Shown: piece by piece, positions 17,809 to 25,230 of the stretch
Position numbering within the stretch: position 1 is the first letter of the stretch
Layout of the letters: each line of letters starts with the position of its first letter
Assembly (NCBI GenBank): GCA_003221455.1
Contig: QHRX01000205.1
Coordinates: 1-48,041 of the forward strand
Source of the DNA: Candidatus Rokuibacteriota bacterium
GTDB lineage: Bacteria > Methylomirabilota > Methylomirabilia > Rokubacteriales > CSP1-6
Direction: 5' to 3'
Length of the DNA stretch: 48,041 nucleotides
The notes under the pieces: generated by a model
Database searches by the model: none
The model's input: the letters and a program-made list of their open reading frames with translations, nothing else
Told to the model about the DNA's origin: nothing
Made by a program: the position numbers and the translations under genes

Positions 17809-19905
17809 TCAGGACGACTTCGCCGCCTCCGGCGCCGTCGCCAGCTGGCCGGACGGCAGAATGATCGTCTCGACCGCGTTGACGTACGCGTGGCGCAGCC
17901 GCTCGACGCGTCGGGTGAAGGTGAGACCGATCCGCGCGAAGGCCTCGCAGATCGCTCGGTGGTCGCCGTCGAGCGAGAAGGGAATGATCCTCGGCAGTCG
18001 GCCGAGGTCGGTCTGAACCCTGTCCTGCAGCTGCTGCATGATCTGGTTCAGCTCTTCGCGCCCCTTTCGGACGGAGCCCACGATCGGAAGCACGAGCAGG
18101 TCCGCGCGCTCCCGTAGCCGCGACAGCGCGGCCGTGGCGAACGGCACGACCTCCACCCCGAGCTCGTTGAGGTACTGGCGAAGGCACTCCCCCACCGTCT
18201 CCGTCAGGAGCGCCTCGGGCACCGCCACCGCCCGCCGGGGCCGGCCCTTGGCCCACGCCAGCCAGCTGGCGCCCAGAAAGAACTCCCGCCGGAGCCGCCG
18301 GACGAAGTCCCGACTGAACTCGTCCCGCGCCCGCTCCCTGACGCTCGGGGCCTCGGCGAACGGCGAGACGTTGGTGACGGCTTCCGGGTCGCCGTGGGCC
18401 CCGGTCACGTACTCGTGAAAGTGCTTGTGGGCGATCATGTAGGAGATCGAGCCGACCAGCTTCTCAAGCGAGGGCCGCCCCCGGAGCGCGTCCCAGAGGG
18501 TGCGCACGAAGAACCGGCGGCGCGGGTGCGAGGACGTCAGCAGGAAGTACCGCGCCACGTTGACGAGGGTCGCCAGCAGCTGCCGGTCGAAGCGCCCGAC
18601 GACCCGACCGCCGAGCTCGGCGCTCGGGCCGAACTGCCGGAAGGTCGTGGCGAGCCGCGCGCCGTAGTTGTCGCGCTTGTACAGGGCGCGAATGAGCCAG
18701 TTGTAGCCCTGGTGCACTTCGGCGGGCGTCATGCGCTTCGGCACGAAGTTGAGGTCGGCGCTCCCGTGCCCGAGCACCTCGGAGGAATCGTAGGGGAGGA
18801 GCCGCCCCTCACGCTGCAGGCGCGCGTGGAGCGGCGTCTTCTCGATCGCGGTCAGGACGCCGCAGGTGGTGAACGCGATTCCCGCCTCCATCAGGAAGTC
18901 GAACTGCTCTTGGAAGATCCGCACGTCGTCGTGGTCGAAGCCGACGATCATGCCGGCGACGACCATCAGGTTGTGGGACTGGATCTTGCGGATGCTCTCG
19001 ATGAGCGGCCGGTGGACGTTCTGCCGCTTCTTCGTCTCCACCAGGCTGTCTAGACGCGGGGACTCGACCCCCACGAAAACGCTCGTGAAGTTCGCCTCCC
19101 GGAGGAGCTCGAGCAGCTGGGGTTTCTCGGCCACCGTGACCGTCATCTCAGCCGAAAAGGTGATGGGGCAGCCGGTGGCGCGGCCGAAATCGACGAGTGC
19201 GCGCAAGAGCTGCTCGGCGTACTTCGTGTTCCCGATGAAGTTGGCGTCAGAGAAGCTCACGTACCGACCGCCGAGCGCGGCGACCGCCTCGATCTCCGCG
19301 AGGACCTGCGGCACCGACTTCGTCCGCGGCACCCGCCCGTCGGTGACGATGATGTCGCAGAATTCGCACTGGAAGGGGCACCCGCGGGTGGTCTGGACAA
19401 AGTGATACAGGTAGTGCCCCTTGCCGAGCAGATCGAAGCGGGGCACGGGCGAGAGGTGAACGTCGACGTTGCCGGCCTGCTTGTAGACCGGTTGCGGGGA
19501 CCCGGCGAGAAGATCGCCGCAGAACCGCGGCCAGGTGATCTCGACCTCACCGTCGAAGACGACGTCGAACGGTCCGTCGGTGAAGCGCTCGGGGCAGAGC
19601 GTCGGGTACGGGCCGCCGACGACGACGAGCTTGCCCCGGCGCTTGAACTCCCTCGCGAGCTCGAGCGCGCGCCGATACTGGACGTTCCAGCAGCCGATGG
19701 CGACGATATCGGCGTCCGTGTCGAACCCGAGCGGGTAGCAGTTCTCGTCCTGCAGCTCGACGGCGATCTCCGGCGGGGTCAGCGCGGCCACCGTGGCGAG
19801 GCCGAGCGGCGCCTGCCCCGACCGCACGCCGACCAGGTCTGAGATGCCCTGGAAGCCCCACAGCGATCGGGGGAAGCGCGGATTCACGAAGAGAATCTTC
19901 TTCAC
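17809..19905 (-). CDS. B12-binding radical SAM protein with a C-terminal extension
   Basis: 698 residues from the GTG at 19905, which has an ideal GGAGGAG ribosome-binding site; an upstream in-frame ATG is less likely. Residues 1-140 form a cobalamin-binding Rossmann domain without the DxHxxG motif, as usual in the class B radical SAM methylases. The [4Fe-4S]/SAM cluster cysteines are C176, C180 and C183 (TTRGCPFQCEFC). A region near residues 390-430 (KRMTPAEVHQGYNWLIRALYK) matches the DUF4070-type domain found in HpnP-like hopanoid methylases and relatives. About 130 further residues (from RRAVAVPEAL onward) form an extra alpha/beta module I do not recognise. It probably methylates an unreactive carbon, but the substrate is unknown and no hopanoid gene is nearby. 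Confidence 0.85.
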   Translation of the reverse strand: MKKILFVNPRFPRSLWGFQGISDLVGVRSGQAPLGLATVAALTPPEIAVELQDENCYPLGFDTDADIVAIGCWNVQYRRALELAREFKRRGKLVVVGGPYPTLCPERFTDGPFDVVFDGEVEITWPRFCGDLLAGSPQPVYKQAGNVDVHLSPVPRFDLLGKGHYLYHFVQTTRGCPFQCEFCDIIVTDGRVPRTKSVPQVLAEIEAVAALGGRYVSFSDANFIGNTKYAEQLLRALVDFGRATGCPITFSAEMTVTVAEKPQLLELLREANFTSVFVGVESPRLDSLVETKKRQNVHRPLIESIRKIQSHNLMVVAGMIVGFDHDDVRIFQEQFDFLMEAGIAFTTCGVLTAIEKTPLHARLQREGRLLPYDSSEVLGHGSADLNFVPKRMTPAEVHQGYNWLIRALYKRDNYGARLATTFRQFGPSAELGGRVVGRFDRQLLATLVNVARYFLLTSSHPRRRFFVRTLWDALRGRPSLEKLVGSISYMIAHKHFHEYVTGAHGDPEAVTNVSPFAEAPSVRERARDEFSRDFVRRLRREFFLGASWLAWAKGRPRRAVAVPEALLTETVGECLRQYLNELGVEVVPFATAALSRLRERADLLVLPIVGSVRKGREELNQIMQQLQDRVQTDLGRLPRIIPFSLDGDHRAICEAFARIGLTFTRRVERLRHAYVNAVETIILPSGQLATAPEAAKSS

Positions 19906-20094: not shown

Positions 20095-20123
20095 ACGCTA
20101 GCACCCACCCCCGGGCGTGTCAA
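20095..20123 (-). promoter_or_regulatory. Consensus promoter of the radical SAM gene with a ~180-base leader
   Basis: On the reverse strand TTGACA (20123-20118), 17 bases, TAGCGT (20100-20095). The expected start near 20088 leaves about 180 bases before the GTG at 19905. I looked for a B12-box or other riboswitch consensus in that leader and did not see one. Confidence 0.6.
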
Positions 20124-20200
20124 TGATCCCCGTGCCCCCCCTCCACCTCCATATCTTGGGCTCGAACTCGGCCCAGCCCCCTGCAGGTAGCATTTTCTCG

Positions 20201-20229
20201 TTGACAGGATGTCCAGGCCTCTCTAGCAT
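20201..20229 (+). promoter_or_regulatory. Consensus promoter of the lysine peptide gene
   Basis: TTGACA (20201-20206), 17 bases, TAGCAT (20224-20229). It faces away from the radical SAM promoter about 80 bases to its left. Confidence 0.65.
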
Positions 20230-20270
20230 GCCTCTCAATACGAGCCCGCAGGGCGAAGGGGGGTGACCCG

Positions 20271-20306
20271 GTGAAGAAGAAGGCGGCGAAGAAAAAGAAG
20301 AAGTAA
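20271..20306 (+). CDS. Tiny lysine-only basic peptide (11 residues)
   Basis: GTG at 20271 opens M-K-K-K-A-A-K-K-K-K-K and stops at TAA 20304-20306. An AAGGGGGG ribosome-binding site (20256-20263) lies 7 bases before the start, a consensus promoter lies about 40 bases further up, and a perfect 10-bp terminator-like hairpin follows 20 bases after the stop. The complete unit (promoter, ribosome-binding site, ORF, hairpin) argues for a real short transcript. The peptide is far too small for any named family; alternatives are a regulatory small RNA with an incidental ORF, or a nucleic-acid-binding polybasic peptide. A longer lysine-rich protein is encoded at 25036-25230. Confidence 0.5.
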   Translation: MKKKAAKKKKK

Positions 20307-20325
20307 GCGCCGACCATCGGCGCAC

Positions 20326-20353
20326 GGCCCTGTCGTCTCATCGCGACAGGGCC
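20326..20353 (+). terminator. Strong hairpin after the lysine peptide gene
   Basis: GGCCCTGTCG (20326-20335) pairs perfectly with CGACAGGGCC (20344-20353) around an 8-base loop. No long U-tract follows. It bounds the short transcript starting near 20236. Confidence 0.65.
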
Positions 20354-20408: not shown

Positions 20409-20918
20409 CTACTTGGCCTTCAGCAGTGGCTTTGGCCGAACCGGGGTGGGGGCCTTGGCCTTGTCGCCTTCCTTCAGCAACCCCTTCACCTCGTCCATGA
20501 ACTGGTTGATGTCCTTGAACTGCCGGTACACCGAGGCGAAGCGGACGTAGGCCACCTGGTCGAGCTTCTGGAGGTGCTCCATCACGAGGTCGCCGAGCTC
20601 GAGGCTCGAGATCTCCTTCTCGGCCCGGTCGTGCAGCCGCGCCTCGATGTCGGCGACGATGTCGTCCACGGCCGGGACCCCCACGGAGCGCTTCTCGCAC
20701 GCCTTGAGGATCGAGCTCCGGAGCTTCTGGCGGTCGAACGGCTCGCGCCGTCCGTCACGCTTCACGACGTGGGGCAGCACGTCCTCGATGTACTCGTAGG
20801 TCGTGTAGCGCCGGTGGCACTTCAGACACTCCCGGCGCCGGCGGATGAACTCGCCTTCGCGCCCGACCCGGGAGTCGACGACCCGGTCCTCCGTGTGACC
20901 GCAGAACGGACATTTCAT
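20409..20918 (-). CDS. nrdR: Transcriptional repressor NrdR
   Basis: 169 residues. The N-terminal zinc ribbon has CPFC and CLKC pairs (MKCPFCGHTEDRVVDSR...RECLKCHRRYTTYE), followed by an ATP-cone domain (VVKRDGRREPFDRQKL... to FASVYRQFKD). NrdR senses ATP/dATP and represses ribonucleotide reductase genes at NrdR boxes. A lysine- and proline-rich tail of about 20 residues extends past the usual end. Ribosome-binding site GGAGGAGGCG precedes the ATG at 20918. It follows glyA by 27 bases, an arrangement common in many bacteria. Confidence 0.95.
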   Translation of the reverse strand: MKCPFCGHTEDRVVDSRVGREGEFIRRRRECLKCHRRYTTYEYIEDVLPHVVKRDGRREPFDRQKLRSSILKACEKRSVGVPAVDDIVADIEARLHDRAEKEISSLELGDLVMEHLQKLDQVAYVRFASVYRQFKDINQFMDEVKGLLKEGDKAKAPTPVRPKPLLKAK

Positions 20919-25035: not shown

Positions 25036-25230
25036 CTAACCGGGCGGGTAGCGGAAGGCCGGCCAGCCGAGCCCGACTGGCTCCCCTGGCGGCTGCCACG
25101 TCTTCCGCGAAGCGGGCCGGTCGTTCAGGGCGACCGCGCGCTTGGCGGAGGACTTGCTGGTCTCGGGCTTCCCCATAGCCGGTCTCTTTGCCACGGACTT
25201 CTTCGTCACGACCTTCTTCGCCTTTTTCAT
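25036..25230 (-). CDS. Lysine-rich small basic protein (64 residues)
   Basis: MKKAKKVVTKKSVAKR starts a 64-residue protein; the first half is lysine/alanine/serine rich like histone-H1-type tails, the second half (TWQPPGEPVGLGWPAFRYPPG) is proline/glycine rich and uncharged. A promoter TTGACC (25267-25262), 18 bases, TAAATT (25243-25238) ends 7 bases before the ATG, giving a leaderless mRNA. This promoter, placed exactly like those of known genes here, is the main evidence that the ORF is real. A nucleoid-associated role is only a guess from composition. Confidence 0.6.
   Translation of the reverse strand: MKKAKKVVTKKSVAKRPAMGKPETSKSSAKRAVALNDRPASRKTWQPPGEPVGLGWPAFRYPPG

Follow-up and report, generated by a model that had tools for sequence, protein, structure and literature searches.

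An apparent gene for an 11-residue polylysine peptide, conserved in Rokubacteria and predicted to be controlled by NrdR

Contig QHRX01000205.1 of a Candidatus Rokuibacteriota bacterium (assembly GCA_003221455.1), analyzed over its whole stretch of 48,041 nucleotides (hereinafter, the window), contains a compact cassette encoding a lysine-rich micropeptide of 11 residues. On balance, and from comparative sequence evidence, we consider this cassette a self-contained gene, with predicted control by NrdR, that encodes a polycationic micropeptide of 10-13 residues; the peptide most probably binds nucleic acids, that is, DNA or rRNA/ribosomes. Genome comparisons reveal a conserved coding unit that occupies two loci, separate evolution of the ORF and the adjacent hairpins, and a conserved pair of upstream boxes. 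Rokubacteria are bacteria of soil and groundwater. The cassette in the window, which we denote slot A, lies between nrdR and a radical SAM gene and consists, together with its neighbors, of the following features.

17809-19905, reverse strand: divergent neighbor, a B12-binding/radical SAM/DUF4070 protein, with a GTG start at 19905
20096-20124, reverse strand: divergent promoter TTGACA-17-TAGCGT of the B12-binding radical SAM gene; TGTCAA is conserved in relatives
20149-20158, forward strand: distal NrdR-box-like site CCATATCTTG, 6 of 6 key positions; kept by relatives 51-53 bp upstream of the -35 element
20181-20190, forward strand: proximal NrdR-box position CTGCAGGTAG, degenerate in the window (4 of 6), strong in most relatives (for example, CCATATCTTG)
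20201-20206, forward strand: -35 element TTGACA
20224-20229, forward strand: -10 element TAGCAT; most relatives have TAGCAT at the identical 17-nt spacing
20256-20266, forward strand: Shine-Dalgarno (SD) sequence AAGGGGGGTGA, mostly GGAGGTGA in relatives
20271-20306, forward strand: putative micropeptide gene, GTG start, MKKKAAKKKKK, TAA stop
20307-20323, forward strand: hairpin 1, GCGCCGA-CCA-TCGGCGC, 7 bp, immediately 3' of the stop codon
20325-20354, forward strand: hairpin 2, CGGCCCTGTCG...CGACAGGGCCG, 12 bp, a likely transcription terminator, possibly common to nrdR
20409-20918, reverse strand: convergent neighbor nrdR (TIGR00244), the ribonucleotide reductase repressor

Each of the parts named in the preliminary description of this DNA, namely, the TTGACA-17-TAGCAT promoter, the SD, the GTG-initiated ORF and a 10-bp hairpin, was found in its place; hairpin 1 and the two NrdR-box-like sites (one full, one weak) are additions. 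The promoter scores 10/12 in a promoter scan that found three promoters of this quality in 12 kb, where shuffled sequences would give 0.3. The peptide contains eight lysines among its 11 residues. Hairpin 2 is a perfect 10-bp stem (20326-20335/20344-20353) that extends to 12 pairs on folding and is probably a terminator, perhaps common to nrdR. The view that no other gene uses these parts is accordingly uncertain, given the position of the hairpin between two convergent genes, where it may terminate nrdR as well; the nrdR stop codon at 20409 is about 55 nt away. A 64-residue lysine-rich protein had also been placed 5 kb away. This ORF exists (25036-25230, reverse strand; 11 Lys and 5 Arg) and is preceded by a promoter-like TTGACC-18-TAAATT, but its sequence is unrelated to the micropeptide, the likeness being limited to a basic N-terminus.

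A pattern consisting of an SD, a start codon and three lysine codons was searched for in 95 genomes of the class and matched 57 of these, with 0 of the 95 matched by the reversed control pattern. Analysis of the neighboring genes resolved the matches into two orthologous slots, with one to three ORFs per genome, nearly all of them 10-13 codons long. Slot B is located behind a gene for an AbiEi-like regulator (AbiEi_2 domain) and faces rpmB (L28) on the opposite strand, with recG beyond; the genome of the window itself carries two slot-B ORFs, MKKKAAKKKKKGR and MAKKKAKKTKKK. By our tally, which for slot A includes ORFs with slightly deviating SDs in addition to those matched by the pattern, an intact lysine-rich ORF is present at slot A in 41 of the 57 family genomes, at slot B in 50, and at one or both in 54. 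Slot A is also present in G092, a genome from another family. Outside this group, 38 genomes of other groups, reached via nrdR matches, yielded no such ORF, only N-termini of long proteins, and a wide occurrence across bacteria was rejected on this ground.

Several observations accompany this distribution. The AbiEi_2-domain gene is regularly found upstream of the slot-B micropeptides (for example, in L143 and L165), and the two could be a functional pair. In other families of the class (L124, L125, L126), there are tandem, slightly longer lysine-rich micro-ORFs with strong SDs, such as MTKKKPVVKKAAPKKKK and MAKKKKAATKKKAAKKKGKKK, in other genomic settings near genes resembling small winged-helix regulators. 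One genome of family f5 (G003, L123) contains a slot-A cassette very close to those of family f1, indicating either bin contamination or transfer.

The encoded peptides conform to M(A)KKK(K)(A/T)KKKK(K), that is, Met, often Ala, 3-4 Lys, Ala or Thr, and 4-6 Lys, and are mostly 10-13 residues long. A single peptide, MAKKKATKKKKK, is encoded by 13 distinct DNA versions, both TAA and TAG serve as stop codons, and ORF length differs solely by whole codons. In ungapped comparisons of same-length slot-A ORFs, 190, 174 and 393 differences fall at codon positions 1, 2 and 3, respectively, the first two counts including Ala-versus-Lys shifts. Across genera, then, the ORF is conserved with synonymous change and whole-codon indels, as befits a micropeptide gene. 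At slot B, ORFs occur singly or as a tandem pair, and every one of them is preceded by an SD of 8-11 nt; among the slot-A ORFs, 31 of 42 have a match of this length and the other 11, the window included, have variants such as GGGGGTGA. The two slots have the SD and the ORF in common, and their flanks are otherwise unrelated. On this combined evidence, the slot-A ORF is very probably a real micropeptide gene, and the earlier suggestion of a polybasic micropeptide stands.

The other suggestion made at the outset was a small RNA with an incidental ORF, which we considered in a broader form, as a regulatory or dual-function RNA whose hairpins are the active part and whose ORF has at most a secondary role. 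Hairpin 2 is indeed very conserved: in the alignment of the relatives, pairing is preserved in 98% of the cells and 8 of the 12 pairs are invariant, and the CCATCT 3' of the stem is conserved as well. Moreover, hairpin 2 outlives the ORF. In G087, the ORF has been cleanly lost whereas the promoter, SD and hairpins are still there, and in G045, the slot-A ORF is broken and the hairpin retained. The converse also occurs: in G072, the ORF is kept and a repeat has taken the place of both hairpins, and in G092, it is accompanied by a different hairpin. Because the ORF survives without the conserved hairpins and vice versa, the two evolve separately, and the ORF does not appear to be incidental to a small RNA; this was rejected as the main reading on the strength of these natural part-deletions. 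The slot-B ORFs, which encode the same peptide without the slot-A hairpins, and the whole-codon and synonymous variation within the ORF argue in the same direction, and an Rfam covariance-model search of the window gave 0 matches at gathering scores. We thus regard an RNA-centered function as improbable. The check that had been proposed, conservation of the ORF in relatives as opposed to the hairpin only, comes out in favor of the ORF, which is kept family-wide. The slot-A ORF is apparently dispensable in G087 and G045, where it has been lost; both genomes still possess slot B. The repeat in G072 (contig C76, L251) starts with GGGGTCAGGCATGCGTATTTGCGT, is accompanied by an inverted copy, and lies just 3' of the micropeptide ORF in place of the conserved hairpins.

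An artefact was considered as well, in which the lysine codons, T-rich on the complementary strand, would simply represent the U-tail of a minus-strand nrdR terminator. The minus strand does present a hairpin, GCGCCGATGGTCGGCGC, followed by TTACTTCTTCTTTTTCTTC, which scores terminator-like. However, the ORF is still present at loci with nrdR at a distance of 0.9-2.3 kb or with no nrdR found nearby (L128, L133, L163, L175, L193, L201, L203), the slot-B ORFs are far from nrdR, and a terminator tail leaves the SD and the start codon at fixed spacing unexplained. This possibility, which was rejected on the slot-B and nrdR-distant copies, is hardly credible.

The cassette also changes its company. 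In genera g8, g11 and g23, an EamA-type transporter gene follows it and, where readable, an orotate-phosphoribosyltransferase-like gene precedes it, both named from sequence and not from a family search. Because the cassette, together with the box-like sites upstream of it, is kept among these different neighbors, it appears to be an autonomous unit. A short lysine-run ORF with a hairpin immediately after it, and the transporter gene next on the same strand in some genera, recall a leader peptide or attenuator, in which the lysine run would sense charged tRNA-Lys or ribosome stalling and control a downstream gene. In most genomes, including that of the window, the next gene nevertheless points toward the ORF, being nrdR at slot A and rpmB at slot B, which leaves no target, and slot B can hold two tandem copies; a co-directional gene is present in only a few genera. 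Attenuation is therefore very improbable and was rejected.

Two sites that follow the pattern CNANATNTNG precede the -35 element of the slot-A promoter. In 38 of the 42 slot-A promoters, the best-scoring pair reaches 10/12 or more, at a spacing of 31-33 bp, with usually 0-1% of shuffled sequences as good. The proximal box starts 19-21 bp before the -35 element and ends about 10 bp upstream of it, outside the -35/-10 region, where the alpha-CTD could make contact. Published NrdR boxes are 16-bp palindromes with a central AT and conserved GC pairs 9 apart (positions 9/18 and 40/49), with partners 31 apart and a spacer of 15-16 bp, 14-17 bp being tolerated. The relatives show this arrangement, namely, two palindromic boxes centered on AT, with C and G 9 apart and about three helical turns between the boxes, and the window retains one full box and one with four of the six key positions. 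Pairs of matching form (10-11/12, spacing 31-32) are also present in the nrdJ promoters of eight relatives, which were used given that the corresponding contig of the window's own genome (L087) begins within nrdJ. In a composite motif search, the combination of a box and the -35 element had roughly one match in each family genome, located at slot A in nearly every case, and in the own genome the motif CCCCCATATNTTGG matches only the distal box of the window and one unrelated site. From these patterns, we consider NrdR control of the slot-A promoter likely.

With respect to nrdJ itself, which encodes the B12-dependent ribonucleotide reductase, the copy in the own genome (L087, C140) carries an intein-like insertion ending in ...VYDLTVPGKHAYLANGFVSHN. 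In several relatives, nrdJ is fragmented and the fragments are separated by long open frames, suggestive of more inteins.

Two features of the boxes count against the preferred reading: the proximal box of the window is weak, and the slot-A boxes are located upstream of the -35 element, whereas those of nrdJ overlap the promoter. The pair could be the operator of another regulator, or could serve only the divergent radical SAM gene, in either case leaving the micropeptide outside the NrdR regulon. Such an arrangement would be consistent with sites that overlap neither promoter and with a distal box that lies 19-33 bp from the divergent -35 element in most loci, a fairly constant distance that makes this gene a possible target or co-target where it is present. 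Against this, the half-sites and spacing equal those at nrdJ of the same lineage, and the boxes hold their fixed distance to the micropeptide -35 element even where the radical SAM gene is absent (L201, L203, L245, L246, L248, L253), and are thereby linked to the micropeptide promoter. We therefore rate an operator unrelated to NrdR, or one for the radical SAM gene only, as rather unlikely; where both genes are present, the boxes may act on the two of them. The main known role of NrdR is repression of ribonucleotide reductase (RNR) genes, yet one report has it activating topA in Pseudomonas aeruginosa (PMC4409342), so that the predicted regulation at slot A may be either repression or activation.

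Under our preferred reading, of an NrdR-controlled micropeptide gene, the cassette's own sigma-70-type promoter and strong SD would drive expression, and the double hairpin would end the transcript. NrdR loaded with dATP/ATP would hold or modulate the promoter via the predicted boxes 31-33 bp apart; when dNTPs are low, the short mRNA would be made and translated, and micropeptide output would track dNTP status, as ribonucleotide reductase (nrdJ) does. The peptide would then work as a polycation that binds nucleic acids, either DNA or rRNA/ribosomes, the slot-B paralogues beside rpmB/recG being partly redundant copies.

Binding to polyanions is most likely, and DNA, favored because of the NrdR link, is a plausible main partner, held with somewhat less than even confidence. 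The composition of the peptide and the proximity of rpmB to slot B speak for ribosomes. A ribosomal or translation-associated micropeptide akin to bL37/bS22, instead of a DNA-associated one, would fit the polybasic composition, the strong SD, the position of slot B facing rpmB, and the precedent of small lineage-specific ribosomal proteins in mycobacteria (PMC6133939). However, rpmB is on the opposite strand, slot A, as a predicted NrdR target, speaks for a role in DNA metabolism, and even the 21-23-residue paralogues have no Pfam or NCBIfam match up to E=10, the 11-mer being too short for a profile scan. A ribosomal role is, in our estimate, rather unlikely. More speculatively, and as something possible rather than probable, these genes might be a new family of approximately 11-residue polylysine proteins within the NrdR regulon, a polycation made along with the dNTP supply that coats or compacts new DNA or tunes ribosomes.

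Protein genes this short escape gene-finding programs and are omitted from annotation, and from a single genome their reality is usually undecidable; in the present case, conservation throughout the family, the occurrence at two unrelated loci and the naturally occurring part-deletions argue strongly for a tiny gene. If the NrdR link is real, a regulon known mainly for ribonucleotide reductase extends to a polycationic micropeptide, which would offer a direct route to asking how a living cell uses an 11-residue lysine peptide, and a polylysine family in this regulon would rank with the smallest conserved bacterial protein genes that are transcribed independently. The micropeptide string was not found in the open-access papers searched, such absence being weak evidence of novelty, and a search of the literature on lysine-rich micropeptides and Rokubacteria small proteins returned nothing relevant.

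The closest known systems differ from slot A in what they control or encode. NrdR-regulated RNR promoters (nrdJ, nrdAB, nrdHIEF, nrdDG) have the same paired, approximately 16-bp palindromic boxes centered on AT, with C and G 9 apart and the partner box 31-33 bp away, and the lineage's own nrdJ has a pair of this kind; at slot A, the boxes would control an 11-residue ORF and not an RNR, and they precede the -35 element where those of the RNR genes overlap the promoter. Like slot A, topA of P. aeruginosa is a non-RNR case, a DNA-metabolism gene for which a box-mediated response to NrdR is reported (PMC4409342), but it has a single box and is activated, whereas slot A has a box pair at a micropeptide gene that is a predicted NrdR target. 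Amino-acid leader peptides share the short ORF, the run of a single amino acid and the following hairpin; they differ in that most micropeptide genomes have no co-directional downstream gene. The small ribosomal proteins bL37 and bS22 are basic in character. Those of mycobacteria resemble the present peptides as very small, lineage-specific proteins, and the predicted slot-A and slot-B products are 10-13 residues long, consist almost only of Lys, Ala and Thr, and match no family. Very small proteins are in themselves familiar; judged by its sequence, what is new is a conserved polylysine 11-mer with a predicted NrdR operator.
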